Of a stretch of 64,000 nt of DNA, positions 7,464 through 62,210 are shown piece by piece. Each line of letters begins with the position of its first letter. Position 1 is the first letter of the stretch. The stretch comes from Glandiceps talaboti (taxonomy: Eukaryota; Hemichordata; Enteropneusta; Spengelidae): NCBI RefSeq assembly GCF_964340395.1, contig NC_135565.1, forward strand, positions 12,176,242 through 12,240,241, given 5' to 3'. Under the pieces are notes generated by a model that had not been told where the DNA came from, did not search any database, and saw only the letters and a list, made by a program, of their open reading frames with translations. The translations under genes and the position numbers were made by a program.

Positions 7464-7562
7464 CTTTGTTTTTGCCGTTAAGTCAGCCCCATGTTCTAAT
7501 AACGTATTGACTACTTTAATTGAGTTAAATTGACAGGCAAAATGAAGTGGTGTGTAGAGATC
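7464..7562 (-). CDS. ankyrin exon B1
   Basis: Type B exon, 33 codons, reading [18 protein letters not shown] and ending AKTK before GTAAAC. It is the most 3' exon found and carries K where other B exons have E in NSIEVV. Confidence 0.85.
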
Positions 7563-10500
7563 CTGCATAGAAGAGAATAAAGATAACAAAAATAAATTGA
7601 GATGTTTAAATAATCATTTAAACAGTAGAAATAGTATTTAAGTGTACGGTACAATTTTGGTTGAAACTCAAACTACACATTTCAGAACGAACAAATATTG
7701 TTACGAAATTCTAGTGTACAGTCATATTGGCAAAGTAGTCAAATATATCATTTGACATTAGATATAATTTGACAGGTTTGTTTGCTTGTTTGTTTGTTTG
7801 TTTGTTTGTCTGTCAGTCTTTCTCTCTTTCTGTCCGAACGTTCATCCATGTATCTGTCTGTCTGTCCGTTTGTCCATGTATATGTCTGTATATGTCTATC
7901 TGTCCGTCCGTTTGTGTGTGGGGATGAGGAGTGGTTGACTTTATATGTGAATGTCCATCAGTGTTTCAGGTAAGGCTTATTTGCGCGCTACTTCCGCAAG
8001 GTCACAGTCTCCTGTCGCAGTCAAATTTCATGTTTTGCGCAACAAAGCATCAATAACGAAACATAATCAAGGCAAGATCGCACAACTGATTTTATTTCCG
8101 TAGTGAGTTTAAGAAACGCGACAAACTTGTGTTTGTAACCCTTTTGATACGTTTTGCAATGCACTCTTTATGTCTAGACACCTGCGCAGCACGCATGCTA
8201 AGCACGACCTGACGTATGTACAACATACATCATCATTATACTTGATAGGTAAATCTACGTATACCCTTATGATACATCACTCAACATGGCTGTTCCGCGC
8301 GTAATAAGGTGTCTGAACCTAGCAGTAGTATGAAAAGAAAACGTGTCAGTGACGAGAAGGGTCGATTTCTATCCTCGTGGCTAAAATTATCTGGCTACCA
8401 TTTCACTAACGGTGAAGAGGTTCAGTAACATGCGAGTAAGTTAGCTGCAATAATTGTACCGTTCTTTTTGGTTTATGACAGATTTAATCTGGGGTTTTCC
8501 CCTTCTCTTTAAGTTGCTGAGTCTGAAAAAACTTAGAGGGGACACTGATGTCCATGCTTATTTATCTGTGTTCGCATGAGTTTTTACACTTTTATGTGTC
8601 TTTATGTTTGTGTATCTCGCAACATAAGAAAACTGCCGACATCATTTTCTGTTCTTTAATGTAGGCCTTCAGTTCAAAATCCTGTTTTGTGTACATACCT
8701 TGTCTACTGCAAAGATGTCTGCTCCTTTTTCTATCAGTGATATTATCATATCAACGGTATTATTCCATGCAGCTAGATGTAAAGCAGTTTTTTCAAACTG
8801 TAGAAAAGTGACAATAATTTTTTGAAATGATGAAATAAACAACACAAAGTTAATCAGACAAGTTCTACATAACAATATACATATATATTCGGTATGTTTC
8901 TATACACTCTATAACCTAGTAAATAATATCTATAACGAAAGGAAATAGAAGCATATAAAGTGCCATACTACAAATTTACACTTCAAATATGTTATTACTC
9001 CTAAACAATCAATCTAATACACAAATATTTTACCTTTGTTTTTGCCGTGAAATCAGCCCCATGTTGTAATAACGTATTGACTACTTCAGTTGAGTTAGAA
9101 AGACAAGCACAATGAAGTGGTGTGTAGAGATCCTGGATAGAAGAGAATAAAGATAACAAAAATAAATTGAGATGTTTAAATAATCATTTAAACAGTAGAA
9201 ATAGTATTTAAATGTATGGTACAATTAATCTTGGTTGAAACTCAAAATACATATTTCAGAACGAACACATATAGTTTTGAAATTCTAGTGTGAAGACAAA
9301 TTGGCAAAGTGGTCAAATATATCATTTGACATTAGATACAAATTGACACGTTTGTTTATATTTGTATGTTTGTCCGTCAGTCTTTCTCTCTTTTTGTCTG
9401 AACGTTCATCCATGTATCTGTCTGTGTGTCCGTTTGTCCATGTGTGTGTGTGTCTGTATGTCTATCTGTTCATCCATGTGGGGGGGGGGAGATAGAGATC
9501 CGGGAGTGGGCGACTGTACATGTGAATGTCCATCAGTGTTGCAGCTAAGGCTTATTTGGGCGCCACTTCTGCAAGGGGGTCACAGTCTGCTCTCACAGTC
9601 AAATTTCATGTTTTGCATAACCAAGAATCAAGAATGAACCATAAACAAGGCAATATGGCGCTACTGATTTTACTTCCTTATTGAGTTTGAAACGCGAGAA
9701 ACCCTTTCCATACGTTTGGCAATACACTCTCTATGTCTAGATACCTGCGCTGAATACATGCTAAGGACGACCTGACGTATGTACAACATACATTAGTATA
9801 CTTGATACATAGATCTATGTATACCCCATCGCAAGATACATCACTCAACATGGATGCTACGCGCGTAAGTTGACTGAACCTAGCAGCAGTATGAAAAGAA
9901 AATGTGTCAGTGACGATAAGGGTCGATTTCTATCCTCGTGGCTAAAATTGGCTGGCTACCATTTCACTAACGGTGAAGAGGTTCAGTAACATGCGAGTAA
10001 GTTAGCTGCAATAATTGTACCGTTCGTTTTGCTTTTGGATAGATTTCTCTTGGTGTTTTTGTGTGTGTTTTTCGCGCTGCGATGTTTAACTGGACACGAA
10101 CGCTACCACTCCTATAATATTAACGCAAATAAACGGATGATGAGGCACAAATCTGACTCACAGTCACTGAAATCATTCAGTGATCTGTAAATGTTCCCCT
10201 TTCTGAATTCTGCTTCTTTGCACAATATATGTTACAAAACAATAGAATAAATGTTTAAATGAAATATTGTCACAGAGTTGTATTGCTCTATTAAGCATCC
10301 AAGAGCAGGTAAAAGGTGTTAGCTTCATATTCCAAATAAACATGATTTTGTATTCCTCCTCAACCGTGAGCGCCATGACCCCCTTCCATTTCCCCCTTTC
10401 TCTTTAAGTTGCTGAGTCTGAAAAATCTTAGAGGGGACATTGATGTCCATGCTTATTTATCTCTGTTCACATGAGTATTTCAACTTTTATGTGTCTTTAT

Positions 10501-13500
10501 GTTTGTGTATCTCGCATCACAAGAAAACTGTCGATATCATTTTCGTCTTCCTTAATGTAGGCCTTCAGTTCAAAATCCTGTTTTGTGTACATACCTCGTC
10601 CACTGCAAAGATGTCTGCTCCTTTTTCTATCAGTGACGTTATCATGTCAGCGGTATTATTATATGCAGCTACATGTAAAGCAGTGTTTTCAGACTATAGA
10701 AAAGTGAAAATAATTTTTTGATATGATGAAAGAAACAACACAAAGTTAATCAGACTAGTTTTACATAACAATATACAAGTATATTAGGTATGTTTCTATA
10801 CACTCTATAACCTAGTACATAATATCTATAACGAAAGGAAATAGAAGCATATAAATTGCCATACTACAATTTTACACTTTAAACATGCTATTACTCCTAA
10901 ACAATAAATCGAATACACACATATTTTACCTTTGTTTTTGCTGTGAGATCAGCCCCATGTTCTAATAACGTATTGACTACTTCAATTGAGTTATATCTAC
11001 AGGCAAGATGAAGTGGTGTCTTGAGATCCTGGATAGAAGAGAATAAAGATAACAGAAATAAATTAAGATGTTTAAATAATCATTTCAACAGTAGAAATAG
11101 TATTTAAGTGTGCATTACAATCTAATTTTGGTTGAAAGTAAAAATACATATTTCAGAACGAAAAAATATTATTTTGAAATTCTAGTGTAAAGACAAATTG
11201 GCAAAGTGGTCAAATATATCATTTGACATTATATACAATTTGACACGTTTCTTTGTTTGTTTGTTTGTCCGTCAGTCTTTCTCTCTTTCTGTCCGAACGT
11301 TCATCCATGTATCTATGTCTGTCTGTCCTTTTGTCCATGTGTGTGTGTCTGTATGTCTATTTGTTCATCCGTGTGGGGGGGGGGGGGCTGGAGATCCGGG
11401 AGTGGGCGACTGTACAATTGAATGTCCATCAGTGTTGCAGCTAAGGCCTACTTGCGCACTACTTACTGATTTTACTTCCGTATTGAGTTTGAAAAGCGAG
11501 AAACACTTTTGATAGGTTTTCCAATGCAATCTCTAAGTCTAGACACCTGCGCTGCATGCATGATAAGCACGACCTGACGTATGTAAAACATACATTAGTA
11601 TACTTGATACATACATCTATGTATACCCCATCGCATGATACATCACTCAACATGGATGCTGCGCGAGTAAGTTGACTGAACCTAGCAGCAGTATGAAAAC
11701 TGGACACGAACGCTACCACTCCTATAATATTAACGCAAATAAACGGATGATGAGGCACAAATCTGACTCACAGTCACTGAAATCATTCAGTGATCTGTAA
11801 ATGTTCCCCTTTCTGAATTCTGCTTCTTTGCACAATATATGTTACAAAACAATAGAATAAATGTTTAAATGAAATATTGTCACAGAGTTGTATTGCTCTA
11901 TTAAGCATCCAAGAGCAGGTAAAAGGTGTTAGCTTCATATTCCAAATAAACATGATTTTGTATTCCTCCTCAACCGTGAGCGCCATGACCCCCTTCCATT
12001 TCCCCCTTTCTCTTTAAGTTGCTGAGTCTGAAAAAACTTAGAGGGGACATTGATGTCCATGCTTATTTATCTCTGTTCACATGAGTATTTCAACTTTTAT
12101 GTGTCTTTATGTTTGTGTATCTCGCATCACAAGAAAACTGTCGATATCATTTTCTTCTTCCTTAATGTAGGCCTTCAGTTCAAAATCCTGTTTTGTGTAC
12201 ATACCTCGTCCACTGCAAAGATGTCTGCTCCTTTTTCTATCAGTGAAGTTATCATGTCAGCGGTATTATTATATGCAGCTACATGTAAAGCAGTTTGTTC
12301 AAACTGTAGAAAAGTGACAATAATTTTTTGAAATGATGAAATAAACAACACAAAGTTAATCAGACTAGTTTTACATAACAATATACATATATATTCGGTA
12401 TGTTTCTATACACTCTATAACCTAGTAAATAATATCTATAACGAAAGGAAATAGAAGCATATAAATTGCCACACTACAATATTACACTTTTAACATATTA
12501 TTACTCCTAAACAATAAATCTAATACACAAATATTTTACCTTTGTTTTTGCCGTGAAATCAGCCCCATCTTTAAATAACGTATTGACTACTTCAATTGAG
12601 TTATATCGACAAGCAAAATGAAGTGGTGTGTAGAGATCCTGGATAGAAGACAATAAAGATAACAAAAATAAATTGAGATGTTTATATAATCATTTACACA
12701 GTAGAAATAGTAATTAAGTGTATAGTACCATTAATTTTGGTTGAAATTCAAAATGTTAAATATTAAATCTAGATGTCAAATATTTTACCTTTGTTTTTGC
12801 TGTGAGATCAGCCCCATGTTCTAATAACGTATTGACTACTTCAATTGAGTTATATTTACAAGCAAAATGAAGTGGTGTGTAGAGATCCTGGATAGAAGAG
12901 AATAAAGATAACAATAATGAATTGAGTTTATTTAATAATCGTTTAAACGGTAGAAATAGCATTTAAGTGTATGGTACAATCAACCTGGTTTGAATTTCAA
13001 AATGTTAAATATTAAATCTAGACTAACTGGACACGAACGTTATTACTCATATAACATTAAGGAAAAAAATATACGGATGAGAAGCAGGTCTGACTCACAG
13101 TCAATGAAATCATTAAGTGATCTGTAAATGTTCACCTTTCTGAATTCCTTTTCTTTGCACAAAAATACAAAACAATAGAATAAATGTTTAAATGAAATGT
13201 TGTCACAGAGTTGTATTACTCTATTAAGCATGCAAGAGCAGTTAAAAAGTATTAGCTTCATATTACAAATAAACATGGTTTTGTTCTACTCGTTAGATGC
13301 AGCCGCCGTGACCCCTTCCATTTCCCCCTTCTCTTTAAGTTGCTCAGTCTGAAAAAAACTTAGAGGGGACATGGATGTCCATGCTTATTTATCTGTGTTC
13401 GCATGATTGTTCTACACTTTCACGTGTCTTTATGTTTGTGTATCTCGCATCACAAGAAAATTGACGACATCATTTTCTGTTCTTCAGTTCAAAATCCGGT

Positions 13501-16500
13501 TTTGTGTACATACCTCGTCCTCTGCAAAGATGTCTGCTCCTTTTTCTATCAATGACGTTATCATGTCAGCAGTATTATTATATGCAGCTAGATGTAAAAC
13601 AGTGTGTTCAAACTGTAGAAAAGTGACAATGATTTTTTGAAATGGTGAAAGAAACAACACAAAGTTAATCAGACTACTTTTACATAACAATATACATATA
13701 TATTTGGTATGTTTCTATACACTCTATAACCTAGTAAATAATATCTATAATGAAAGGAAATAGAAGCATATAAATTGCCATACTACAATATTACACTTTT
13801 AACATGTTATTACTCCTAAACAATAAATCTAATACACAAATATTTTATCTTTGTTTTTGCCGTGAAATCAGCCCCATGTTTAAATAACGTATTGACTACT
13901 TCAATTGAGTTATATCGACAAGCAAAATGAAGTGGTATCTCGCATCATCAGAAAACTATCGACATCATTTTCTGCTCTTAATGTAGGCCTTCAGTTCAAA
14001 ATCCTGTTTTGTGTACATACCTCGTCCACTGCAAAAATATCTGCTCCTTTTTCTATCAGTGACGTTATCATGTCAACGGTATTCTTCACTGCAGCAAGAT
14101 GTAAAACAGTTCTTTCAAACTGTAGAAAAGTGAGAATGTTTTTTTTAAATACCGAAAGAAACAACACAAAGTAACATTTTCAATGCAAACTCAGTGACTT
14201 TTATTCTGTCGTTTTGACTCTGAAGAATGCAACAGGCCACAAAATTAAGCCGACTAGTTTTACATAACAATATACATATCTATTTTGATATGTTTCTATA
14301 CACTCTATAACCTAATAATTCAAATCTAAAAAGAAAAGAAATATAAGCATATAAAGTGCCATACTACTATTTTATACTTTAAGTGTAATATTACTCCTAA
14401 ACATTAAATCAAGACCTCAAATATTTTACCTTTGTTTTTGCCGTGAAATCAGCCCCATGTTCTAATAACGTATTGACTACTTCAATTGAGTTATATCGAC
14501 AACCAAAATGAAGTGGTGTGTAGAGATCCTGGATAGAAGAGAATAAAGGTAACAATAATGAATTAAGTTGATTTAATAATCGTTTAAACGGTAGAAATAG
14601 TATTTAAGTGTGTGGTACAATCAATCTTGTTTGAATTTCAAACTATTAAATATTAAATCTAGACTAACTGGACACGAACGCTACTACTCGTACAACTTTA
14701 ACGCAAATAAACGGATGAGAAGCAAGTCTGACTCACAGTCACTGTAATCATTTAGTGATCTGTAAATGTTCACCTTTCTGAATTCTTTTTCTTTGCAGAA
14801 TATATGTTACAAAACAATAGAATAAATGTTTAAATGAAATGTTGTCATAGTGTTGTATCACTCTATTAAGCATCCAAGAGCAGTTAAAAAGTATTAGCTT
14901 CATATTCCAAATAAACATGGTTTTGTTTCCCTCCGTAGGCGTGGCTGCCGTGACCCTCTTCCACCCCCCCCCCACCCCCCCCCCACCCACCCCCTTCTGT
15001 TTAACTTCCTCAGTCTGAAAAAACTTAGAGGGGACACTGATGTCCATGTTTATTTATCTGTGTTCGCAAGAGTTCTTCCATTTTCATGTGTCTTTATGTT
15101 TGTCTATCTCGCATCATCAGAAAACTATCGACATCATTTTCTGTTCCTTAATGTAGGCCTTCAGTTCGAAATCCTGTTTTGTGAACATACCTCGTCCACT
15201 GCAAAGATATCTGCTCCTTTTTCTATCAGTGACGTTATCATGTCAGCGGTATTATTCCATGCAGCTAGATGTAAAACGGTTTGTTCAAACTGTAGAAAAG
15301 TGACAATAATTTTTTGAAATGGTGAAAGAAACAACACAAATAGTTTTACATTACAATATACATATATATTGGGTAAATGTTTCTATACACTCTATAACCT
15401 AGTAAATGATATATATAACGAAAGGAAATACAAGCATAGAAATTGCCATACTACAATTTTACACTTCAAACATGTGATTACTCCTACACAATAAATCTAA
15501 CACACAAATATTTTACCTTTGTTTTTGCTGTGAAATCAGCCCCATGTTCTAATAACGTATTGACTACTTCAATTGAGTTATATCTACAGGCAAGATGAAG
15601 TGGTGTCTTGAGATCCTGGATAGAAGAGAATAAAGATAACAAAAATAAATTAAGATGTTTAAATAATCATTTCAACAGAAGAAATAGTATTTAAGTGTGC
15701 ATTACAATCTAATTTTGGTTGAAAGTAAAAATACATATTTCAGAACGAAAAAATATTATTTTGAAATTCTAGTGTAAAGACAAATTGGCAAAGTGGTCAA
15801 ATATATCATTTGACATTATATACAATTTGACACGTTTGTTTGTTTGTTTGTTTGTTTGTCCGTCAGTCTTTCTCTCTTTCTGTCCGAACGTTCATCCATG
15901 TATCTATGTCTGTCTGTCCTTTTGTCCATGTGTGTGTGTCTGTATGTCTATTTGTTCATCCGTGTGGGGGGGGGGGGGGGGGGGCTGGAGATCCGGGAGT
16001 GGGCGACTGTACAATTGAATGTCCATCAGTATTGCAGCTAAGGCCTACTTGCGCACTACTTACTGATTTTACTTCCGTATTGAGTTTGAAAAGCGAGAAA
16101 CACTTTTGATAGGTTTTCCAATGCAATCTCTAAGTCTAGACACCTGCGCTGCATGCATGATAAGCACGACCTGACGTATGTACAACATACATTAGTATAC
16201 TTGATACATACATCTATGTATACCCCATCGCATGATACATCACTCAACATGGATGCTGCGCGAGTAAGTTGACTGAACCTAGCAGCAGTATGAAAACTGG
16301 ACACGAACGCTACCACTCCTATAATATTAACGCAAATAAACGGATGATGAGGCACAAATCTGACTCACAGTCACTGAAATCATTCAGTGATCTGTAAATG
16401 TTCCCCTTTCTGAATTCTGCTTCTTTGCACAATATATGTTACAAAACAATAGAATAAATGTTTAAATGAAATATTGTCACAGAGTTGTATTGCTCTATTA

Positions 16501-19500
16501 AGCATCCAAGAGCAGGTAAAAGGTGTTAGCTTCATATTCCAAATAAACATGATTTTGTATTCCTCCTCAACCGTGAGCGCCATGACCCCCTTCCATTTCC
16601 CCCTTTCTCTTTAAGTTGCTGAGTCTGAAAAAACTTAGAGGGGACATTGATGTCCATGCTTATTTATCTCTGTTCACATGAGTATTTCAACTTTTATGTG
16701 TCTTTATGTTTGTGTATCTCGCATCACAAGAAAACTGTCGATATCATTTTCTTCTTCCTTAATGTAGGCCTTCAGTTCAAAATCCTGTTTTGTGTACATA
16801 CCTCGTCCACTGCAAAGATGTCTGCTCCTTTTTCTATCAGTGACGTTATCATGTCAGCGGTATTATTATATGCAGCTACATGTAAAGCAGTTTGTTCAAA
16901 CTGTAGAAAAGTGACAATAATTTTTTGAAATGATGAAATAAACAACACAAAGTTAATCAGACTAGTTTTACATAACAATATACATATATATTCGGTATGT
17001 TTCTATACACTCTATAACCTAGTAAATAATATCTATAACGAAAGGAAATAGAAGCATATAAAGTGCCATACTACAATTTTACACTTCAAATATGTTATTA
17101 CTCCTAAACAATCAATCGAATACACAAATATTTTACCTTTGTTTTTGCCGTGAAATCAGCCCCATGTTGTAATAACGTATTGACTACTTCAATTGAGTTA
17201 TATTGACAAGCAACATGAAGTGGTGTGTAGAGATCCTGGATAGAAGAGAATAAAGATAACAAAAATAAATTGAGATGTTTAAATAATCATTTAAACAGTA
17301 GAAATAGTATTTAAATGTATGGTACAATTAATCTTGGTTGAAACTCAAAATACATATTTCAGAACGAACACATATAGTTTTGAAATTCTAGTGTAAAGAC
17401 AAATTGGCAAAGTGGTCAAATATATCATTTGACATTAGATACAAATTGACACGTTTGTTTATATTTCTATGTTTGTCCGTCAGTCTTTCTCTCTTTTTGT
17501 CTGAACGTTCATCCATGTATCTGTCTGTGTGTCCGTTTGTCCATGTGTGTGTGTGTCTGTATGTCTATCTGTTCATCCATGTGTGGGGGGGAGATAGAGA
17601 TCCGGGAGTGGGCGACTGCACATGTGAATGTCCATCAGTATTGCAGCTAAGGCTTATTTGGGCGCCACTTCTGCAAGGGGGTCACAGTCTGCTCTCACAG
17701 TCAAATTTCATGTTTTGCATAACCAAGAATCAAGAATGAACCATAAACAAGGCAATATGGCGCTACTGATTTTACTTCCTTATTGAGTTTGAAACGCGAG
17801 AAACCCTTTCCATACGTTTGGCAATGCACTCTCTATATCTAGACACCTGCGCTGAATACATTGCTAAGGACGACCTGACGTATGTACAACATACATTAGT
17901 ATACTTGATACATAGATCTATGTATACCCCATCGCAAGATACATCACTCAACATGGATGCTACGCGCGTAAGTTGACTGAACCTAGCAGCAGTATGAAAA
18001 GAAAATGTGTCAGTGACGATAAGGGTCGATTTCTATCCTCGTGGCTAAAATTGGCTGGCTACCATTTCACTAACGGTGAAGAGGTTCAGTAACATGCGAG
18101 TAAGTTAGCTGCAATAATTGTACCGTTCGTTTTGCTTTTGGATAGATTTCTCTTGGTGTTTTTGTGTGTGTTTTTCGCGCTGCGATGTTTAACTGGACAC
18201 GAACGCTACCACTCCTATAATATTAACGCAAATAAACGGATGATGAGGCACAAATCTGACTCACAGTCACTGAAATCATTCAGTGATCTGTAAATGTTCC
18301 CCTTTCTGAATTCTGCTTCTTTGCACAATATATGTTACAAAACAATAGAATAAATGTTTAAATGAAATATTGTCACAGAGTTGTATTGCTCTATTAAGCA
18401 TCCAAGAGCAGGTAAAAGGTGTTAGCTTCATATTCCAAATAAACATGATTTTGTATTCCTCCTCAACCGTGAGCGCCATGACCCCCTTCCATTTCCCCCT
18501 TTCTCTTTAAGTTGCTGAGTCTGAAAAATCTTAGAGGGGACATTGATGTCCATGCTTATTTATCTCTGTTCACATGAGTATTTCAACTTTTATGTGTCTT
18601 TATGTTTGTGTATCTCGCATCACAAGAAAACTGTCGATATCATTTTCGTCTTCCTTAATGTAGGCCTTCAGTTCAAAATCCTGTTTTGTGTACATACCTC
18701 GTCCACTGCAAAGATGTCTGCTCCTTTTTCTATCAGTGACGTTATCATGTCAGCGGTATTATTATATGCAGCTACATGTAAAGCAGTGTTTTCAGACTAT
18801 AGAAAAGTGAAAATAATTTTTTGATATGATGAAAGAAACAACACAAAGTTAATCAGACTAGTTTTACATAACAATATACAAGTATATTAGGTATGTTTCT
18901 ATACACTCTATAACCTAGTACATAATATCTATAACGAAAGGAAATAGAAGCATATAAATTGCCATACTACAATTTTACACTTTAAACATGCTATTACTCC
19001 TAAACAATAAATCGAATACACACATATTTTACCTTTGTTTTTGCTGTGAGATCAGCCCCATGTTCTAATAACGTATTGACTACTTCAATTGAGTTATATC
19101 TACAGGCAAGATGAAGTGGTGTCTTGAGATCCTGGATAGAAGAGAATAAAGATAACAGAAATAAATTAAGATGTTTAAATAATCATTTCAACAGTAGAAA
19201 TAGTATTTAAGTGTGCATTACAATCTAATTTTGGTTGAAAGTAAAAATACATATTTCAGAACGAAAAAATATTATTTTGAAATTCTAGTGTAAAGACAAA
19301 TTGGCAAAGTGGTCAAATATATCATTTGACATTATATACAATTTGACACGTTTCTTTGTTTGTTTGTTTGTCCGTCAGTCTTTCTCTCTTTCTGTCCGAA
19401 CGTTCATCCATGTATCTATGTCTGTCTGTCCTTTTGTCCATGTGTGTGTGTCTGTATGTCTATTTGTTCATCCGTGTGGGGGGGGGGGGGGGGGCTGGAG

Positions 19501-22500
19501 ATCCGGGAGTGGGCGACTGTACAATTGAATGTCCATCAGTGTTGCAGCTAAGGCCTACTTGCGCACTACTTACTGATTTTACTTCCGTATTGAGTTTGAA
19601 AAGCGAGAAACACTTTTGATAGGTTTTCCAATGCAATCTCTAAGTCTAGACACCTGCGCTGCATGCATGATAAGCACGACCTGACGTATGTAAAACATAC
19701 ATTAGTATACTTGATACATACATCTATGTATACCCCATCGCATGATACATCACTCAACATGGATGCTGCGCGAGTAAGTTGACTGAACCTAGCAGCAGTA
19801 TGAAAACTGGACACGAACGCTACCACTCCTATAATATTAACGCAAATAAACGGATGATGAGGCACAAATCTGACTCACAGTCACTGAAATCATTCAGTGA
19901 TCTGTAAATGTTCCCCTTTCTGAATTCTGCTTCTTTGCACAATATATGTTACAAAACAATAGAATAAATGTTTAAATGAAATATTGTCACAGAGTTGTAT
20001 TGCTCTATTAAGCATCCAAGAGCAGGTAAAAGGTGTTAGCTTCATATTCCAAATAAACATGATTTTGTATTCCTCCTCAACCGTGAGCGCCATGACCCCC
20101 TTCCATTTCCCCCTTTCTCTTTAAGTTGCTGAGTCTGAAAAAACTTAGAGGGGACATTGATGTCCATGCTTATTTATCTCTGTTCACATGAGTATTTCAA
20201 CTTTTATGTGTCTTTATGTTTGTGTATCTCGCATCACAAGAAAACTGTCGATATCATTTTCTTCTTCCTTAATGTAGGCCTTCAGTTCAAAATCCTGTTT
20301 TGTGTACATACCTCGTCCACTGCAAAGATGTCTGCTCCTTTTTCTATCAGTGAAGTTATCATGTCAGCGGTATTATTATATGCAGCTACATGTAAAGCAG
20401 TTTGTTCAAACTGTAGAAAAGTGACAATAATTTTTTGAAATGATGAAATAAACAACACAAAGTTAATCAGACTAGTTTTACATAACAATATACATATATA
20501 TTCGGTATGTTTCTATACACTCTATAACCTAGTAAATAATATCTATAACGAAAGGAAATAGAAGCATATAAATTGCCACACTACAATATTACACTTTTAA
20601 CATATTATTACTCCTAAACAATAAATCTAATACACAAATATTTTACCTTTGTTTTTGCCGTGAAATCAGCCCCATCTTTAAATAACGTATTGACTACTTC
20701 AATTGAGTTATATCGACAAGCAAAATGAAGTGGTGTGTAGAGATCCTGGATAGAAGACAATAAAGATAACAAAAATAAATTGAGATGTTTATATAATCAT
20801 TTACACAGTAGAAATAGTAATTAAGTGTATAGTACCATTAATTTTGGTTGAAATTCAAAATGTTAAATATTAAATCTAGATGTCAAATATTTTACCTTTG
20901 TTTTTGCTGTGAGATCAGCCCCATGTTCCAATATCGTATTGACTACTTCAATTGAGTTATATTGACAAGCAACATGAAGTGGTGTGTAGAGATTCTGGAT
21001 AGAAGAGAATAAAGATAACAATAATGAATTAAGTTGATTTAATAATCGTTTAAACAGTAGAAATAGCATTTAAGTGTATGGTACAATCAACCTGGTTTGA
21101 ATTTCAAAATGTTAAATATTAAATCTAGACTAACTGGACACGAACGTTATTACTCATATAACATTAAGGAAAAAAATATACGGATGAGAAGCAGGTCTGA
21201 CTCACAGTCAATGAAATCATTAAGTGATCTGTAAATGTTCACCTTTCTGAATTCCTTTTCTTTGCACAAAAATACAAAACAATAGAATAAATGTTTAAAT
21301 GAAATGTTGTCACAGAGTTGTATTACTCTATTAAGCATGCAAGAGCAGTTAAAAAGTATTAGCTTCATATTACAAATAAACATGGTTTTGTTCTCCTCGT
21401 TAGATGCAGCCGCCGTGACCCCTTCCATTTCCCCCTTCTCTTTAAGTTGCTCAGTCTGAAAAAAACTTAGAGGGGACATGGATGTCCATGCTTATTTATC
21501 TGTGTTCGCATGATTGTTCTACACTTTCACGTGTCTTTATGTTTGTGTATCTCGCATCACAAGAAAATTGACGACATCATTTTCTGTTCTTCAGTTCAAA
21601 ATCCGGTTTTGTGTACATACCTCGTCCTCTGCAAAGATGTCTGCTCCTTTTTCTATCAATGACGTTATCATGTCAGCAGTATTATTCAATGCAGCTAGAT
21701 GTAAAACAGTGTTTTCAAACTGTAGAAAAGTGACAATGATTTTTTGAAATGGTGAAAGAAACAACACAAAGTTAATCAGACTACTTTTACATAACAATAT
21801 ACATATATATTTGGTATGTTTCTATACACTCTATAACCTAGTAAATAATATCTATAATGAAAGGAAATAGAAGCATATAAATTGCCATACTACAATATTA
21901 CACTTTTAACATGTTATTACTCCTAAACAATAAATCTAATACACAAATATTTTATCTTTGTTTTTGCCGTGAAATCAGCCCCATGTTTAAATAACGTATT
22001 GACTACTTCAATTGAGTTATATCGACAAGCAAAATGAAGTGGTATCTCGCATCATCAGAAAACTATCGACATCATTTTCTGCTCTTAATGTAGGCCTTCA
22101 GTTCAAAATCCTGTTTTGTGTACATACCTCGTCCACTGCAAAAATATCTGCTCCTTTTTCTATCAGTGACGTTATCATGTCAACGGTATTCTTCACTGCA
22201 GCAAGATGTAAAACAGTTCTTTCAAACTGTAGAAAAGTGAGAATGTTTTTTTTAAATACCGAAAGAAACAACACAAAGTAACATTTTCAATGCAAACTCA
22301 GTGACTTTTATTCTGTCGTTTTGACTCTGAAAAATGCAACAGGCCACAAAATTAAGCCGACTAGTTTTACATAACAATATACATATCTATTTTGATATGT
22401 TTCTATACACTCTATAACCTAATAATTCAAATCTAAAAAGAAAAGAAATATAAGCATATAAAGTGCCATACTACTATTTTATACTTTAAATGTAATATTA

Positions 22501-23998
22501 CTCCTAAACATTAAATCAAGACCTCAAATATTTTACCTTTGTTTTTGCCGTGAAATCAGCCCCATGTTCTAATAACGTATTGACTACTTCAATTGAGTTA
22601 TATCGACAACCAAAATGAAGTGGTGTGTAGAGATCCTGGATAGAAGAGAATAAAGGTAACAATAATGAATTAAGTTGATTTAATAATCGTTTAAACGGTA
22701 GAAATAGTATTTAAGTGTGTGGTACAATCAATCTTGTTTGAATTTCAAACTATTAAATATTAAATCTAGACTAACTGGACACGAACGCTACTACTCGTAC
22801 AACTTTAACGCAAATAAACGGATGAGAAGCAAGTCTGACTCACAGTCACTGTAATCATTTAGTGATCTGTAAATGTTCACCTTTCTGAATTCTTTTTCTT
22901 TGCAGAATATATGTTACAAAACAATAGAATAAATGTTTAAATGAAATGTTGTCATAGTGTTGTATCACTCTATTAAGCATCCAAGAGCAGTTAAAAAGTA
23001 TTAGCTTCATATTCCAAATAAACATGGTTTTGTTTCCCTCCGTAGGCGTGGCTGCCGTGACCCTCTTCCACCCCCCCCCACCCCCCCCCCCACCCACCCC
23101 CTTCTGTTTAACTTCCTCAGTCTGAAAAAACTTAGAGGGGACACTGATGTCCATGTTTATTTATCTGTGTTCGCAAGAGTTCTTCCATTTTCATGTGTCT
23201 TTATGTTTGTCTATCTCGCATCATCAGAAAACTATCGACATCATTTTCTGTTCCTTAATGTAGGCCTTCAGTTCGAAATCCTGTTTTGTGAACATACCTC
23301 GTCCACTGCAAAGATATCTGCTCCTTTTTCTATCAGTGACGTTATCATGTCAGCGGTATTATTCCATGCAGCTAGATGTAAAACGGTTTGTTCAAACTGT
23401 AGAAAAGTGACAATAATTTTTTGAAATGGTGAAAGAAACAACACAAATAGTTTTACATTACAATATACATATATATTGGGTAAATGTTTCTATACACTCT
23501 ATAACCTAGTAAATGATATATATAACGAAAGGAAATACAAGCATAGAAATTGCCATACTACAATTTTACACTTCAAACATGTGATTACTCCTACACAATA
23601 AATCTAACACACAAATATTTTACCTTTGTTTTTGCTGTGAAATCAGCCCCATGTTCTAATAACGTATTGACTACTTCAATTGAGTTATGTCGACAGGCAA
23701 AATGAAGTGGTGTGTAGAAATCCTGGATAGAAGATATATGTTTATATAGGAGTAGAAATAGTATTTAAGTGTTTGGTACATTTTATCGCTGCTGAAATCC
23801 AAAATACATATTTCAAAACTAAGAAATATCGCTTTGAAATGATACATCAGTGTATGGTCAAATTGGCAATTGATCAAAATTTATTATGTCATGATGACTT
23901 TCCATGTCTATGACTGTGTATGTATGTATGTATGTATGTATGTATGTATGTATGTATGTATGTATGTATGTATGTATTTATGTATGTATGTATGTATG

Positions 23999-24030
<32 letters not shown>

Positions 24031-24347
24031 TGTATGTATGTATGTATGTATGTGTGTCTGTGTGTGTTTCTGTCTGCCTGGCTACGCCTCTTTCTGTATA
24101 CGTGTTTCAAAAGTTTTGGAGTTTTATTGAATTTTTATGTATCTGTATTACGCATCCTTATAAAAAAATGGCGTATAAAAAAATGGCGTATTTTATACTT
24201 TTTCTTATGATGGATTTGTATAGAACAAAGATATATCATGGTACATACCTCGTCCACTGCAAAGATGTCTGCTCCTTTATCTATCAGTGAGAGCACCTTA
24301 TCAGCAGTATTACTCTTGGCAGCTTCATGTAAAGCCGTCTGTTTAAA
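7464..24347 (-). CDS. ankyrin-repeat gene: array of 28 repeat exons (partial gene)
   Basis: Twenty-six intact exons and two broken ones lie on the minus strand. Each intact exon except the first is exactly 99 nt, begins after a pyrimidine-rich AG, ends before GT(A/G), is phase 0 at both ends, and encodes one 33-residue ankyrin repeat. Two types mostly alternate. Type A starts FE-x-T-x-LH-x-AA and ends GADIFAVDE or similar. Type B starts DLYTPLH or DLKTPLH and ends GAD(L/F)TAKTK. Transcript order is A13 B15 A12 B14 A11 (psiB13) A10 B12 B11 A9 B10 A8 B9 A7 B8 A6 B7 A5 (psiB6) A4 B5 B4 A3 B3 A2 B2 A1 B1. Joined, they give about 855 residues of repeats. No start, stop, death, NACHT or transmembrane segment was recognised, so both ends of the gene are missing. 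Ankyrin repeats generally mediate protein binding; the partner is unknown. Because the exons are symmetric, any subset can splice in frame. Confidence 0.85.
7760..7925. repeat. TTTG/TCTG-rich intronic simple sequence
   Basis: A (TTTG)n run grades into TCTGTC and TCCGTTTGTCCATG words. Related copies recur at about 9350, 11250, 15840, 17455 and 19350, ending in poly-G runs of different length. It belongs to the duplicated intron, and the Cys/Val/Ser-rich translations are artefacts. Confidence 0.85.
8699..8797 (-). CDS. ankyrin exon A1
   Basis: Type A exon, 33 codons: [18 protein letters not shown], ending AVDK rather than AVDE. It is clearly diverged from A7, its positional counterpart in the second 8.1-kb copy. 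Confidence 0.85.
9034..9132 (-). CDS. ankyrin exon B2
   Basis: Type B exon: [18 protein letters not shown], ending GADFTAKTK. It differs from its duplicate B9 at six bases, all within 40 nt and all amino-acid changing (C/V, L/Q, S/Y, T/I). Confidence 0.85.
10595..10693 (-). CDS. ankyrin exon A2
   Basis: Type A exon starting [13 protein letters not shown] rather than FE. The acceptor is TTTTCTATAG. It is identical to A8. Confidence 0.85.
10930..11028 (-). CDS. ankyrin exon B3
   Basis: Type B exon with K for Y at position 3: [18 protein letters not shown], ending GADLTAKTK. It matches B10. Confidence 0.85.
12205..12303 (-). CDS. ankyrin exon A3
   Basis: Type A exon: [18 protein letters not shown], ending AVDE. 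It is identical to A9 and one silent base from A7. Confidence 0.85.
12540..12638 (-). CDS. ankyrin exon B4
   Basis: Type B exon: [18 protein letters not shown], then [18 protein letters not shown] replaces the usual LEH. It is identical to B11. It is followed in transcript order by A3 and preceded by another B exon (B5). Confidence 0.85.
12789..12887 (-). CDS. ankyrin exon B5
   Basis: Type B exon: [18 protein letters not shown], ending GADLTAKTK. It lies only 150 bp from B4 with no A exon between. It differs from its duplicate B12 at five bases, four of them amino-acid changing. Confidence 0.85.
13514..13612 (-). CDS. ankyrin exon A4
   Basis: Type A exon: [18 protein letters not shown], ending AEDE. 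It differs from A10 at three bases, changing H to N and Y to L with no silent change. About 900 bp of surrounding intron holds one difference. Confidence 0.85.
13849..13936 (-). pseudogene. broken ankyrin exon psiB6
   Basis: This is type B sequence whose donor GT has become AT (plus-strand TTTATCTTTG instead of TTTACCTTTG). Its 5' end is lost: AGTGG runs straight into TATCTCGCATCATCAG, text that normally lies in the A-exon intron. A deletion therefore fused a B exon to the next intron, leaving A5 beside A4. psiB13 carries the same lesions. Confidence 0.85.
14021..14119 (-). CDS. ankyrin exon A5
   Basis: Type A exon: [18 protein letters not shown], ending AVDE. It is identical to A11 and the most distinctive A exon in helix 1 (V-K instead of Y-N). 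Confidence 0.85.
14430..14528 (-). CDS. ankyrin exon B7
   Basis: Type B exon: [18 protein letters not shown], ending [10 protein letters not shown] replaces the usual A of the HxAC motif. It is identical to B14. Confidence 0.85.
15191..15289 (-). CDS. ankyrin exon A6
   Basis: Type A exon: [18 protein letters not shown], ending AVDE. It is identical to A12. Confidence 0.85.
15517..15615 (-). CDS. ankyrin exon B8 (chimeric)
   Basis: Type B exon whose first half ([18 protein letters not shown]) matches B3/B10 and whose second half (GADFTAKTK and the adjoining intron) matches B15. The switch lies inside the exon near 15581, the edge of the 8.1-kb duplication. Confidence 0.85.
16802..16900 (-). 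CDS. ankyrin exon A7
   Basis: Type A exon: [18 protein letters not shown], ending AVDE. It is like A3 and A9 apart from one silent base. Confidence 0.85.
17137..17235 (-). CDS. ankyrin exon B9
   Basis: Type B exon: [18 protein letters not shown], ending [10 protein letters not shown]. The HVACQY block is shared with B12, so one may have donated it to the other. Confidence 0.85.
18698..18796 (-). CDS. ankyrin exon A8
   Basis: Type A exon starting [13 protein letters not shown], identical to A2. Confidence 0.85.
19033..19131 (-). CDS. ankyrin exon B10
   Basis: Type B exon: [18 protein letters not shown], ending GADLTAKTK, as B3. Confidence 0.85.
20312..20410 (-). CDS. ankyrin exon A9
   Basis: Type A exon: [18 protein letters not shown], identical to A3. 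Confidence 0.85.
20647..20745 (-). CDS. ankyrin exon B11
   Basis: Type B exon: [18 protein letters not shown] with [10 protein letters not shown], identical to B4. Confidence 0.85.
20896..20994 (-). CDS. ankyrin exon B12
   Basis: Type B exon: [18 protein letters not shown], then [16 protein letters not shown]-to-N, F-to-V, K-to-Q and L-to-I changes from its duplicate B5 sit in a short patch that includes about 60 bp of upstream intron resembling the B7/B14 flank, as expected for a conversion tract. Confidence 0.85.
21621..21719 (-). CDS. ankyrin exon A10
   Basis: Type A exon: [18 protein letters not shown], ending AEDE. It is the duplicate of A4 with two replaced surface residues. Confidence 0.85.
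21956..22043 (-). pseudogene. broken ankyrin exon psiB13
   Basis: Carries the same lesions as psiB6: donor GT changed to AT, and the 5' end replaced by A-intron text. It was therefore broken before the 8.1-kb duplication. Confidence 0.85.
22128..22226 (-). CDS. ankyrin exon A11
   Basis: Type A exon: [18 protein letters not shown], identical to A5. Confidence 0.85.
22537..22635 (-). CDS. ankyrin exon B14
   Basis: Type B exon: [18 protein letters not shown], identical to B7. Confidence 0.85.
23298..23396 (-). CDS. ankyrin exon A12
   Basis: Type A exon: [18 protein letters not shown], identical to A6. Confidence 0.85.
23624..23722 (-). CDS. ankyrin exon B15
   Basis: Type B exon: [18 protein letters not shown], ending [10 protein letters not shown] at position 2 and H in helix 1 are unique in the array. 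It is the most upstream B exon found. Confidence 0.85.
23918..24055. repeat. (TATG)n microsatellite
   Basis: About 130 bp of TATG repeats with a few interruptions lie in the intron between A13 and B15. Its MYVC and YIHT translations are artefacts. Confidence 0.97.
24249..24338 (-). CDS. ankyrin exon A13 (most upstream, shortened)
   Basis: Diverged type A exon: [20 protein letters not shown], ending AVDE. At the usual acceptor position the AG has become CG. An in-frame AG nine bases downstream (TTTAAACAG) would give a 90-nt, 30-codon phase-0 exon, which I use here. It may be the first repeat exon of the gene, or a decayed one. Confidence 0.65.
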
Positions 24348-26484: not shown

Positions 26485-26517
26485 AAAAAAGGACAAATAC
26501 GATTTAACACTGCTGAC

Positions 26518-26715
26518 CTTCGGACCAGGGTGTAATTCGACATCGCCACACAGTACCAACGCCAGTGATAAAAATAGCAACAACCGCAAACTAAGTGTAA
26601 CTTTTGACGTCATGGACGAAAGGCCTCCAGTTTGGTTGCCACTAGTACCATGATATCCTGGTGGACACAGAAAACACCCGATTCTGATTCTCCATGTGTT
26701 AGTATCTACACCCAT
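26518..26715 (-). CDS. hydrophobic leader ending in a 2A-like motif (fragment)
   Basis: The minus frame from an ATG at 26715 encodes 66 residues. They end in a hydrophobic run (SLRLLLFLSLALVL) followed by CGDVELHPGPK. This resembles the 2A consensus D(V/I)ExNPGP, except that H replaces the conserved N. Such leaders are known at the N-terminus of CR1/L2-type retrotransposon proteins and of some invertebrate NLR proteins, where they can act as signal peptides. A possible phase-0 donor (AAG then GTCAGC) follows directly; otherwise the frame runs 11 codons to a stop beside the (GTTA)n repeat. No endonuclease or RT follows. It is either a truncated retroelement 5' end or a leader exon. It lies 2.2 kb upstream of, and on the same strand as, the ankyrin exons. 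Confidence 0.5.
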
Positions 26716-27690
26716 TTTACATGTTTTATGTGGAAGTAACGGCCCGTAGGAATGTTGTCTTGATGTCTACGCCTTTTTTTACTGCAGAGTAGTCAAAATG
26801 TCTTACGCTGTATACTGTTTACTCTACGGTTATAAACTTTTTTTATTTTATAGCAACTGTATATCACAGGCTATTTTGAAGCATTTATTGCATTTCTCAC
26901 TGGTGACAAGATGTGGTATAATTTAAAGTGGAATTCTTTTGTTATTTGAAAAACTTAATTGTACATAAGTTAATAATGTGCCGTGAAAAGATAAACAGAA
27001 AAAGCCAAGTAGTTTACTTAGAATGGAGGAAAAATAATTCCACGAGTTCCAACACGTCCTTTATGGCCACTTCACTACAAAGTGACATGCTGAGGTGGTT
27101 TTATAAACACGCCAGTGTGATTTAGAGACACAGCAACAGTTGTCCTCAAGGTGATGCTATAAATTGCAACTTAAGTAACATGTGTGCCCTCACCTGCCAA
27201 ATGTACAATAATCAATATATTAGAAAAGCTACACAACCTTTCCTTAAATAATAACTAAAGTAAAGGTGGTACACGTCTCCACATGTGACACCTTATTTCA
27301 GGACACCAGGACATTGCCTACATGACATGCATTGAATGGTACAGTGCACTGTCTCAATTATACGGAATGCAGACATAGAAGCGACGTATAACATAAGCAG
27401 AAAATTTGAGAAAAAAATAGAACAGGGACAGTATCTTACATCCAAGAGGCTAAGTAAGGAATCCTTCAGTAATTGCTGGGGGTGGAGGATAGGGAGAATT
27501 ATGGGGGGGGGGGGGCAATATATTGGTAAATGGAATTGGAGGGTCACAATTTACTTTGACTCATTGTATTACCTAACTTTGCATTACTTAAAATTATCAA
27601 TGTGGTGGCAGCAAGAGTGGGTGGGGTGGGGGTTCGAGTCCTTTCCACTGATTCTGATTGTGTCCCTTTGCATCTTTGACCAGAACACGT
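26716..27690. other. non-coding; short poly-G run
   Basis: Contains a G run near 27503-27515 and a G-rich patch. No gene is seen. Confidence 0.4.
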
Positions 27691-41421: not shown

Positions 41422-42291
41422 ATGGCCTTTAGTCCATCACCCGTAAAATCCAGGACCTACTTTGAAGGTCAAAGAATCCCTATGACACGCCATGAACGGG
41501 AAAACCTTTACGCCGATAAACCAACCAAGTACAGTGCATTTTCACCAAGACCAATCCATAAATTAACAGAAAAGAAACCACCAAAGTCCTGGACAAGTAT
41601 TGCGATGAATCACAAGCTACGTACAAGTGTGCCTGAGTCAACTAGCGTGCAGACTTCAGAACCTTACAAACTTTGGTTACATGCTGGACAGAGAGATGCA
41701 CCTTTCCCACCAAGATGGGATCCACAGTATGATAGTAATGTATGGAGAAATTTTGGGATGTCAAGGGGTGTAAAGTTTGACACGTCAGGTAAAGATATCA
41801 CTGAATTAATAGCATCTATGTATCCGATACAAGTACCCGCACATTCAGAAGTTGGGGACAATAATTATGCAAAATACCTTGCTGAAGTGCCTCTCATTCA
41901 CGATGGCAAACGGCGTAATATCGCAATATCCAAATCAGAGTTGAATCTGCAAGAATTCCAGAAGCTGAAAGTTCGAAGTGAAGTACGAGTACCACCAGTA
42001 ACTGAACAAGGTGAAATCCGACCACCATCCAAGTTCAAGCGCTACGAGCATCGTTTTGTACCAACACCTGAAACGACAACAGAACATCTTCGTCAGATGA
42101 CGCAAACAGAGAGAGACATTGAGAGGAATGTCTTAGGAACAAGACAGAAGTTACATTACCCAAGAATCTGGAAATTAACCTTTAAAACTAATAATCCTGA
42201 ATATGGCAAAGTGAAACATGAAATAGATGAACGAAAACGAGGTCTAAAAATAAAAAAACCTCAAATCATCTTACCTCAGCCCATGAGATAA
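41422..42291 (+). CDS. uncharacterised 289-aa protein, possible microtubule-inner-protein-like
   Basis: The open frame begins further left, but TTTTTTCCAG at 41402-41411 is a clear acceptor, so the start is the ATG ten bases into this exon (MAFSPSPVK). The product is basic, rich in Pro, Tyr and Trp motifs, without signal peptide, membrane segment or coiled coil. Recognisable blocks are SRTYFEGQRIPMTRHERENL (residues 10-29), APFPPRWDPQYDSNVWRNFG near 100-120, an ELIASMYPIQVP block near 140-150, KYLAEVPLI, and PSKFKRYEHRFVPTPE near 210. This low-complexity fold with short Trp/Tyr-Pro motifs resembles small axonemal or sperm microtubule inner proteins. SPMIP8/TEPP is one candidate of similar length, but I cannot confirm it. 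The divergent coiled-coil neighbour supports a shared ciliary setting only weakly. The single coding exon ends in TAA. Confidence 0.7.
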   Translation: MAFSPSPVKSRTYFEGQRIPMTRHERENLYADKPTKYSAFSPRPIHKLTEKKPPKSWTSIAMNHKLRTSVPESTSVQTSEPYKLWLHAGQRDAPFPPRWDPQYDSNVWRNFGMSRGVKFDTSGKDITELIASMYPIQVPAHSEVGDNNYAKYLAEVPLIHDGKRRNIAISKSELNLQEFQKLKVRSEVRVPPVTEQGEIRPPSKFKRYEHRFVPTPETTTEHLRQMTQTERDIERNVLGTRQKLHYPRIWKLTFKTNNPEYGKVKHEIDERKRGLKIKKPQIILPQPMR

Positions 42292-60997: not shown

Positions 60998-62210
60998 CTA
61001 TGAGAGAGAAAAATGGGGAGGGGGAGGGAATGAGAGAGAGCAGAGGGCGGGGGAAAGCCTCTAATGTTTAATTACTTTATGAGGGTGGGGGAAAGTGTGT
61101 GTGTGTACAAAGGAATGACTTGAAAGTTACTCACAATCTTTAGACATCCCAACAGAGACACATTTCTTAAACCTACAATGTTGACATCTGTTTCTGTTCA
61201 TTCTTTCAATCAGACAGTTTCCACTAAAATGACAACGATATTCGATTTTTTTCTGGATACTCCTTCTGAAGAACCCCTGAGGTTTGAAACAAAATCATAT
61301 TACAAAATTATGAAAAGTTCAAGTACAAAAGTTGAGATAATTAGAAAAGGAGAATGTGAGATATCCATTTGACCTTAAAGAAATTCACATGCCTGAAATA
61401 TCTTATGAGATTGACTTTTCATTGACTCTGAGTTCATAGTTATAGATGAGAATTTCTATTCATATCATGACTGGTTTTTGAACCAATTCAAAAATTTCAC
61501 AAATGATGTCATGTCATTATTATTACACATGTACCCGTGATTACTTATACCAGTTTGTGCACATACTGATGGTATTTGTACTGCAGTGCAAAAATATTAT
61601 TGCATACCTGCATGCAAATGACATGCAAATGAGGAGACAATAATTCATTTTACACGAAAGCATGTGCTCACAGCATCATTTTTATTGAAGTTTGCTGTTT
61701 TGGATAAACATATGTAGAAGTAACAGAACCCAATTTGCCCTCATGCTTGCAGTGTTTGCTGCTACACTTTCACTGGTTACACTTGTGTGAAAATACTGTC
61801 ACATAGAACACTGCAAGAACTCGTGGAAATATCCTGATTATGCCACTTACACTTGTGTGTCATGGGGTTCTGTCATAATATGTCCCTGACAATGCTGACT
61901 AGACATCAGTGAAAATTTAAGATTCATTTCCAATACTCATTTAACTTGGTAAGTAGTAAAGTTCATCAACCTTGTAACTGACAAAGCTTGGTTAATACAA
62001 TATCAAATTTATGAATGCTGCCCTCTAGTGTCAGTTTTCGAATTAATAATAGCCCTCTAGTGTCCACTTTGAATTTTAGATTCAAATTCTTGCTCACCTT
62101 ACAACCTTCACAAGCCATCACACCATAATGAAAGCCTGACGATTTATCTCCACATACTTTACATGGCAAGGCCGGCTCTTGTTCTATTGGTCTCTGATTC
62201 ATACTTTCAT
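55732..62210 (-). CDS. NR1-type nuclear receptor, seven coding exons, 5' end incomplete
   Basis: Exons (minus): 62098-62210, 61135-61276, 59845-60068, 58860-59036, 57753-58002, 56962-57247, 55732-55837. All junctions are GT-AG and all phases agree, giving about 430 residues. Finger I is C-x2-C-x13-C-x2-C with P-box CEGCK|G. Finger II is C-x5-C-x9-C-x2-C, ending [14 protein letters not shown]. The A-box is VRIGRYSKK. The ligand-binding domain carries the NR signature ([26 protein letters not shown]), LTCGDRPGIKN, an H10/11 helix ([16 protein letters not shown]) and AF-2-like PPLLAELND, then a 45-residue F region. DBD text is closest to the E78/E75/Rev-erb group. An AF-2 helix argues against Rev-erb, so E78 (NR1E) or a related NR1 group is most likely. 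It is a nuclear transcription factor; ligand unknown. Frame is open upstream (ES before MNQ), so an N-terminal exon may lie further right. Confidence 0.9.
55936..56335 (-). mobile_element. non-LTR retrotransposon 3' end (CR1/L2-like), in receptor intron
   Basis: The minus frame reads [19 protein letters not shown], then [20 protein letters not shown] and [13 protein letters not shown] with a stop. These are the conserved C-terminal blocks of CR1/L2-type reverse transcriptases. It is followed by a (TTGA)n tail at 55936-55978. It is 5'-truncated, with a stop upstream. It is related in layout to the 4-5 kb relic but less decayed. It sits between exons 6 and 7 of the receptor, on the same strand. 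Confidence 0.85.
56540..56945. promoter_or_regulatory. octamer-rich degenerate repeat in receptor intron
   Basis: ATTTGCAT, the POU octamer, occurs six times (about 56550, 56650, 56661, 56704, 56849, 56921). Most copies sit inside AATTTGCATAAATTG followed by GA-GACCTATGAACACAA. The copies are part of a decayed tandem repeat, so regulatory function is only a possibility. Confidence 0.4.
56962..57247 (-). CDS. receptor exon 6: LBD helices 8-12
   Basis: Joins LTCG to D-RPGIKN, continues through helix 9-11 text, and contains PPLLAELND at the AF-2 position. The donor is CATTCAG|GTATGT. Confidence 0.9.
57327..57800. repeat. 97-bp minisatellite that includes the exon 5 donor
   Basis: Units start (CAAAGAATATTTTCATTTTA) at 57327, 57424, 57521, 57618 and 57713. 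The fifth unit runs into exon 5. The other four each hold a copy of the last 41 nt of that exon and its donor, read on the minus strand as CTTGTGGAAGTGAGATATTG against CTTGTGGAGGTGAGATATTG in the gene. Confidence 0.95.
57753..58002 (-). CDS. receptor exon 5: LBD helices 4-8
   Basis: Starts [18 protein letters not shown] after ATGTCTTTCAG and ends LTCG before GTGAGA. It carries the second half of the NR LBD signature. Confidence 0.9.
58290..58492. repeat. 19-20 bp minisatellite in receptor intron
   Basis: About ten copies of ATCAGTATACTTAAAACCCAT, with one-base variants (TTAAA, TAAAA). Each holds the palindrome AGTATACT. Confidence 0.95.
58860..59036 (-). CDS. receptor exon 4: start of LBD
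   Basis: Starts [20 protein letters not shown] after GTATTTCAG and ends [13 protein letters not shown] before GTATAT. It is phase 0 on both sides. Confidence 0.9.
59845..60068 (-). CDS. receptor exon 3: A-box and hinge
   Basis: Completes codon S and continues [14 protein letters not shown], then a charged hinge helix ([20 protein letters not shown]) to [13 protein letters not shown] corresponds to VRFGRxPKRE of E75/Rev-erb. Confidence 0.9.
60097..60204. repeat. 20-bp minisatellite beside the exon 3 acceptor
   Basis: Five and a half copies of ATTCTATAGGAAGTCTTACA. On the minus strand each reads ACTTCCTATAG, a pyrimidine-AG word similar to a weak acceptor. The true acceptor is 27 bp away. Confidence 0.95.
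60303..60640. repeat. two poly-C runs in receptor intron
   Basis: C runs near 60304-60324 and 60614-60628. The flanks are partly inverted: ATAGGATAAAAAAACTAAATTC lies left of the first and an inverted match (GAATTTAGTTTTTTTTTATC) lies right of the second. The 60.26-60.66 kb segment may therefore be a foldback element with C/C-run ends. Confidence 0.6.
60963..61045. repeat. (GA)n and G/A-rich tract
   Basis: About 30 bp of GA repeats followed by GGGGAGGGGGAGGG-like purine sequence, close to exon 2. Confidence 0.9.
61135..61276 (-). CDS. receptor exon 2: second zinc finger
   Basis: Begins [19 protein letters not shown] and ends [11 protein letters not shown] plus one base. All four cysteines of finger II are present. 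The donor is GATT|GTGAGT. Confidence 0.95.
61612..61630 (+). promoter_or_regulatory. paired octamer ATGCAAAT
   Basis: Two exact POU octamers in direct orientation, separated by GAC, lie in the intron between the two DNA-binding-domain exons. Confidence 0.4.
62098..62210 (-). CDS. receptor exon 1 seen here: first zinc finger
   Basis: After TTGTTTCACAG the frame reads [15 protein letters not shown], then [15 protein letters not shown] and ACEGCK before GTGAGC. Translation could start at the Met at 62202, or come from an exon further right. Confidence 0.9.

Follow-up and report, generated by a model that had tools for sequence, protein, structure and literature searches.

What can leave the introns of a recent duplication nearly identical while its exons already differ at residue-changing sites? 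This question is raised by a tandem array of ankyrin exons in the hemichordate Glandiceps talaboti, which we analyzed in a window of 64,000 nucleotides (C18:12176242-12240241), with genome-wide searches in the 590-Mb assembly. An earlier note, made from the letters of the window alone, had described the pattern and suggested diversifying selection, exon-directed conversion, or both. Our results support, without proving, a narrower reading, in which a few hypervariable contact codons would sit on a conserved scaffold and whole exons would be reshuffled by unequal crossing-over, rather than an acceleration of entire exons.

The array runs along the minus strand, and each of its 26 open exons (99 bp, phase-0 boundaries) encodes one 33-residue ankyrin repeat; AG and GT occupy the usual places in 25 of the 26. 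The repeats carry a TPLH-type motif and are related to solved ankyrin chains, as phmmer retrieved 471 PDB sequences at E values up to 0.001, with ankyrin-1/-2 as the best. Two protein searches with the array returned generic ankyrins only, at no more than 42% identity among the matches listed (two lists of 120). In the genome, matches to an A-B exon pair above 50% identity were confined to the array (E up to 1e-4, 60 matches listed, 150 of 392 candidates scored). Our types A and B correspond to the "B" and "A" of the earlier note, respectively, whose names for single exons are kept below; elsewhere, exons are cited by their higher coordinate.

Alignment of the two copies of an 8.1-kb duplication within the array (Table 1) gave 63 substitutions in 7,132 ungapped columns. 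Thirty of them fall in the 12 exons (1,188 sites), which amounts to 2.5% versus 0.56% in introns (Fisher, 1e-8). When the exon mask was shifted circularly, a procedure that keeps the clustering, only 3 of 7,140 offsets reached 30, zero shift included (mean, 10.5). The excess was found in segment 9761-15516 (exon, 8/891 sites; intron, 8/4,865; Fisher, 0.0013; shift, 96/5,760) and in segment 8495-9760 (exon, 16/198; intron, 25/1,067; Fisher, 0.0002; shift, 12/1,269). Our statistics on the copies are given both with and without exon 15615, which is a recombinant (see below).

Recounting reproduced the base and residue differences that had been noted for the pairs A4/A10, B5/B12, and B2/B9 (Table 1). 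The general picture drawn from them held in part. The ∼900 bp of intron around A4/A10 does contain a single difference (at 13288), but three further intron differences lie at 12924-12949, beside B5. Likewise, nearly half of the substitutions are exonic, as given above, but 7 of the 12 exon pairs are without any difference, and the introns of segment 8495-9760 differ by 2.3%. An exon divergence above that of introns is true between the copies but not in general. Across the array paralogues, whole-exon diversity was 0.073 for type A, against 0.121 and 0.245 in the flanking 100-bp introns, and 0.103 for type B, against 0.140 and 0.137. Exon-wide acceleration was thus rejected, since whole exons are less diverse array-wide than their own introns; the near identity of the introns between the copies reflects nothing more than how recent the 8.1-kb duplication is.

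We then examined which codons differ. Designed ankyrin repeat proteins (DARPins) are randomized at positions 2, 3, 5, 13, 14, and 33, and these six of the 33 codons served as an a priori contact set. They hold 11 of the 20 residue differences between the copies (hypergeometric, 1.5e-4) and 9 of 16 without the recombinant exon (5e-4). The differences gather in codons 3, 8, 11, and 12; several variable codons carry two-base differences, and invariant codons such as those of TPLH separate them. Among ten modules, each made of an A exon, the intron, and a B exon (45 pairs), contact codons chosen after inspection of the data varied more than the intron in each of the four divergence bins; the remaining codons of the exon stayed below the intron in the three bins above 2% divergence. 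A tree-free count of variable sites in the seven distinct modules gave 17/36 for contact sites versus 51/225 for the intron (p = 0.0026), and 21/162 for other exon sites (p = 0.010); 21 of 44 extra residue states fell in the six a priori codons (permutation, 0.0023). Relative to the intron rate in these seven modules, replacement was 2.06 in the a priori contact codons (95% range, 0.94 to 3.65; 3.4% of bootstrap draws at or below 1) and 0.49 outside them (0.23 to 0.85); the post hoc contact set yielded 2.66 (1.58 to 4.15) and 0.28 (0.11 to 0.55), respectively. Our interpretation is that the scaffold is constrained and its contact residues are hypervariable, and the data moderately support diversifying selection at the likely contact positions.

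Several points weigh against this reading. Replacement in the a priori contact codons was 1.82 times the whole-exon silent rate, with a range (0.75 to 4.33) that includes 1 and is thus not significant. The check proposed in the earlier note, the ratio of replacement to silent divergence (dN/dS) beside the divergence of introns, gave 0.0276/0.0191 for whole exons between the copies, near 1.4, and 0.0056 for introns; silent exon sites are therefore above introns as well. The identical exon pairs mentioned above belong here too, and the sample is one individual.

To which gene does the array belong? An exon of ∼1,067 residues lies just outside the window on the same strand, starting 1.8 kb to its left and 9.2 kb downstream of the array's final exon. 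Pfam identified in it leucine-rich repeats (LRR), followed by Roc (E = 5e-13) and COR-A (E = 4e-10), each of the latter two passing the cut-off; the mark of ROCO proteins is a COR domain after Roc in the same chain. Its PDB matches were SHOC-2, for the LRR, and chains of LRRK2 and LRRK1. The array could still be a gene of its own, with the ROCO exon as a separate neighbor, and the 9.2-kb gap, in which no exon was recognized, would agree with that, as would an early in-frame methionine in the ROCO exon, which makes a start of its own possible. We nevertheless consider two separate genes unlikely, as the frame of the ROCO exon opens, at its very start, with a phase-0 acceptor compatible with the final exon of the array, and as the same order and strand recur elsewhere in the genome. 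We found 74 COR-A matches, 54 of them over the cut-off and many clustered on C4, C12, and C20. A short-frame ankyrin match lay within 25 kb at 6 of the 73 other COR-A loci, in all six cases upstream and on the same strand; among the matches listed, none was downstream or on the opposite strand. The three paralogues examined on C20, whose ROCO exon is 35 to 37% identical, are each preceded, on their own strand, by ankyrin exons that encode a single repeat; among these exons is one of 33 residues and phase 0, and two of the C20 regions were partly masked.

Given this recurrence of order and strand at other COR-A loci and in the C20 paralogues, the basic architecture of the family seems to be ankyrin-LRR-Roc-COR with each ankyrin repeat in an exon of its own, and the present member would have multiplied these repeats. 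Besides the early methionine, the linkage is weakened by the ankyrin frame list behind it, which covered 150 of 1,549 candidates, by four of the six ankyrin-linked COR-A matches falling below the Pfam curated cut-off, and by three of the six loci being alike in spacing, perhaps through recent duplication from each other. On balance, the array is probably the N-terminal part of a ROCO gene, and we infer a single transcript with the ROCO exon. Ankyrin repeats precede the LRR in LRRK1 also. No kinase match appeared among the 25 of 28 families listed for the ROCO exon or among minus-strand frames across 40 kb, a search that would miss a distant small exon, and the gene does not seem to have the kinase architecture of the LRRK1 type.

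The array also preserves a trace of how it grew. Six bases, all within the first 34, separate exon 15615 from exon 23722, and base 82 alone separates it from exon 19131. The 600 bp upstream of exon 15615 show 45% mismatches with 23722 and 0.8% with both 19131 and 11028, and its downstream intron has 0/227 differences from that of 23722 versus 8.8% from that of 19131. Because its upstream side follows 19131/11028 and its downstream side 23722, the duplication was joined by an in-frame unequal crossover inside an exon. The pair 15615/23722 was accordingly rejected as a signal of selection, exon 15615 being the product of the crossover.

Conversion alone, in which short tracts from other repeats or alleles would place blocks of differences in exons with no selection on residues, must be weighed against this background. 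The differences are indeed clustered, some variant motifs are shared with further array exons (codons 8 to 11 of exon 20994 are those of 17235), and the elevation of silent exon sites over introns between the copies would be expected as well. Conversion donors should, however, bring proportional intron differences, yet divergence in contact codons is above that of introns whatever the bin, non-contact codons diverge less than introns in three of the four bins, and residue changes concentrate in a few codons; we hold conversion alone to be distinctly improbable. Nor is the exon-directed conversion of the earlier note needed. The one dense tract of differences (12822-12949) crosses an exon-intron boundary, so that difference tracts are not limited to exons, silent sites are elevated, and the best-documented event is the unequal crossover.

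Three further explanations carry very little weight. If mutation were locally elevated toward the start of the exon, with no selection, the variable silent sites within contact codons (pS, 0.18 to 0.19, from few sites) would be accounted for, but we give such a hotspot hardly any credence, as silent sites elsewhere in the exon match introns (0.082 to 0.089 versus 0.089) and invariant codons such as TPLH are interleaved with variable ones. An assembly error or mixed haplotypes might have created the duplicate or its differences, long near-identical repeats being hard to assemble and our analysis being made from the assembly and not from reads; this is very unlikely, since such artifacts would not gather in codons 3, 8, 11, and 12, keep the frame in 26 exons, and follow the ankyrin contact pattern. 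Relaxed constraint, with residue changes drifting in a decaying array, is suggested by two degenerate exons and one exon without the usual acceptor but seems scarcely tenable when 26 equal-length exons are open, 25 of them with AG and GT in the usual places, when replacement outside contact codons runs at 0.28 to 0.49 of the intron rate, and when drift cannot exceed that rate.

We therefore return to selected contact codons combined with crossover, which we propose, with fair but by no means full confidence, as part of the best explanation of the whole locus. The array would form, at the N terminus of a ROCO-type GTPase (ankyrin repeats-LRR-Roc-COR), the solenoid that serves recognition. Because each 33-residue repeat is a single 99-bp phase-0 exon, duplication, loss, and exchange of exons can all keep the frame. 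Unequal crossing-over between in-register repeats multiplies and reshuffles them, as the 8.1-kb duplicate and the recombinant exon at its junction show. Selection would preserve the ankyrin scaffold and favor residue change at codons of the beta-hairpin and inner helix, which face the target-binding groove. In recent copies, the selected codons would already differ when the introns had barely diverged, which would explain the exon/intron pattern from which we started. The groove might bind variable ligands, non-self or self, and binding might be signaled through the Roc GTPase. A bolder version, in which the 26 exons are combined by alternative splicing, or else by unequal recombination that is frequent and perhaps somatic, into a DARPin-like binder with a Roc switch that differs per individual or per cell, is an unlikely one in our view; if true, it would give deuterostomes an equivalent of the scheme proposed for brown-algal ROCO genes.

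A few other features of the array and its surroundings complete the description (Table 1). The degenerate ankyrin exon is alike in both copies, which indicates that its inactivation is older than the 8.1-kb duplication. The outermost exon, at the 5′ end, may start 9 bp later, at an AG nine bases inside that keeps the frame, or it may be dead. Pfam searches of the minus-strand flanks within the window yielded nothing except this outermost repeat, itself below the cut-off, and Rfam at gathering scores gave no match. Six other ankyrin regions of the genome contained a gene on C24, which we take to be a conventional ankyrin, scattered diverged repeats, or, in both C13 regions, no match; a homogeneous ankyrin array was absent from these six, where strong self-matches were other tandem repeats. 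Clusters of single-repeat ankyrin frames, some of them equal-scoring, were seen at C15:4195209-4207884, C26:5768943-5779743, and C22:1122260-1139927 in a frame listing and may be further homogeneous exon arrays. Among neighboring features, a single-frame gene resembles testis-expressed protein 52; besides itself, its sole matches were to a protein of Saccoglossus kowalevskii (66% identity), proteins of two sea stars (51 to 52%), and one other protein (46%), a set that points to a probable hemichordate as the source. One minus-strand frame carries a motif that is presumably a nuclear-receptor-like zinc finger, and another has a hydrophobic stretch ending in GDVELHPGP, which we take to resemble a 2A-type motif known from some LINE elements. 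The von Willebrand type D domain matches outside the window probably belong to another gene.

Table 1. Features of the ankyrin exon array and its neighborhood (window positions unless a contig is given)
Feature	Position	Strand	Remarks
Ankyrin exon array	7464-24347	-	26 open exons of two mostly alternating types, each 99 bp, phase 0/0; transcript order from 24347 down to 7464
8.1-kb duplication, copy 1 (aligned part)	8495-15627	-	
8.1-kb duplication, copy 2 (aligned part)	16596-23734	-	
Exon not named in the earlier note	8699-8797	-	Versus 16802-16900: 10 bases, 6 residues; within 8495-9760
Exon B2	9034-9132	-	Versus 17137-17235: 6 bases, 4 residues, all replacement
Exon B5	12789-12887	-	Versus 20896-20994: 5 bases: 1 silent, 4 replacements (D/N, F/V, K/Q, L/I)
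Dense tract of differences between copies	12822-12949	-	From exon 12887 into its upstream intron
Exon A4	13514-13612	-	Versus 21621-21719: 3 bases, 2 residues (H/N, Y/L), both replacement, none silent
Degenerate ankyrin exon, copy 1	13849-13944	-	Without acceptor; donor GT changed to AT
Recombinant exon	15517-15615	-	5′ part and upstream intron like 19131/11028; 3′ part and downstream intron like 23722
Exon B9	17137-17235	-	Partner of 9034-9132
Exon B12	20896-20994	-	Partner of 12789-12887
Exon A10	21621-21719	-	Partner of 13514-13612
Degenerate ankyrin exon, copy 2	21956-22051	-	Defects identical to copy 1 (without acceptor; GT changed to AT)
Outermost (5′) exon	24249-24347	-	Usual acceptor position is CCG, not CAG
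Frame ending in GDVELHPGP	26485-26766	-	Hydrophobic stretch
Testis-expressed protein 52-like gene	41422-42288	+	Single frame; PF15046
Frame with presumed zinc finger	61969-62226	-	
von Willebrand type D domain matches	C18:12136242-12146241	-	PF00094

Several known systems offer parallels to the array. The randomized positions of DARPins lie on the concave surface (PMC8229355), and the variable positions of the array include 3, 5, 13, and 14, but the array is natural, varies also at position 10, and varies little at positions 2 and 33. In snake three-finger toxins, as described in PMC2711939 and PMC2474615, exons likewise differ at the molecular surface while introns stay alike, although whole segments are switched there among separate genes, as opposed to single codons within repeats here. 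Tetrahymena LRR genes offer arrays of 90-bp exons of equal length and phase that arose by unequal crossing-over and have similar introns when recent; they differ in being LRR, phase 2, genome-wide, and from a ciliate, and the excerpts of PMC6564038 contain no test of contact codons. LRRK1 and other animal ROCO proteins share LRR-Roc-COR (see also PMC6337361, PMC10643122), unlike the recently multiplied ankyrin array and the lack of a detected kinase (in the ROCO exon and 40 kb of frames) in the present gene.

Fungal NOD-like receptors (NLRs) have highly similar ANK, TPR, or WD repeats, in which concave positions are under positive selection (PMC4986451; see also PMC1805685). The parallel extends to near-identical tandem ankyrin repeats, concerted evolution, and, probably, selection at concave hairpin and inner-helix positions (PMC4986451), but the fungal proteins are of the NACHT or NB-ARC kind, whereas the array has intron-separated exons and, probably, Roc-COR. 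The brown-algal LRR-ROCO genes, whose shuffled exons were reported by Zambounis et al. (2012, as cited in PMC11378527 and PMC6564038), have one LRR per exon, positive selection on the concave face, and alternative splicing (PMC11378527). Like them, the array probably belongs to a ROCO gene, gives every repeat an exon of its own with uniform length and phase (all 26 open exons here), may be under selection at concave positions, and has a proposed receptor role. Their exons are, however, 72-bp phase-2 LRR exons, alternatively spliced and spread over many genes, in contrast to 99-bp phase-0 ankyrin exons in an animal, in one homogeneous array found so far. The literature searched, with most subscription journals outside its coverage, yielded no ankyrin-exon array in an animal ROCO gene.

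The array brings such features together in an animal, in the ankyrin exons of what is probably a ROCO gene, and by analogy it would work like those systems. The large ROCO set described above makes it testable whether ROCO proteins form a hemichordate receptor class, and the introns between repeats allow duplications to be dated and selection on binding residues to be measured against a near-neutral standard. If our reading is correct, an animal close to vertebrates shares with brown-algal ROCO and fungal NLR receptors one design, in which repeats are shuffled by recombination and mainly the target-facing residues vary.

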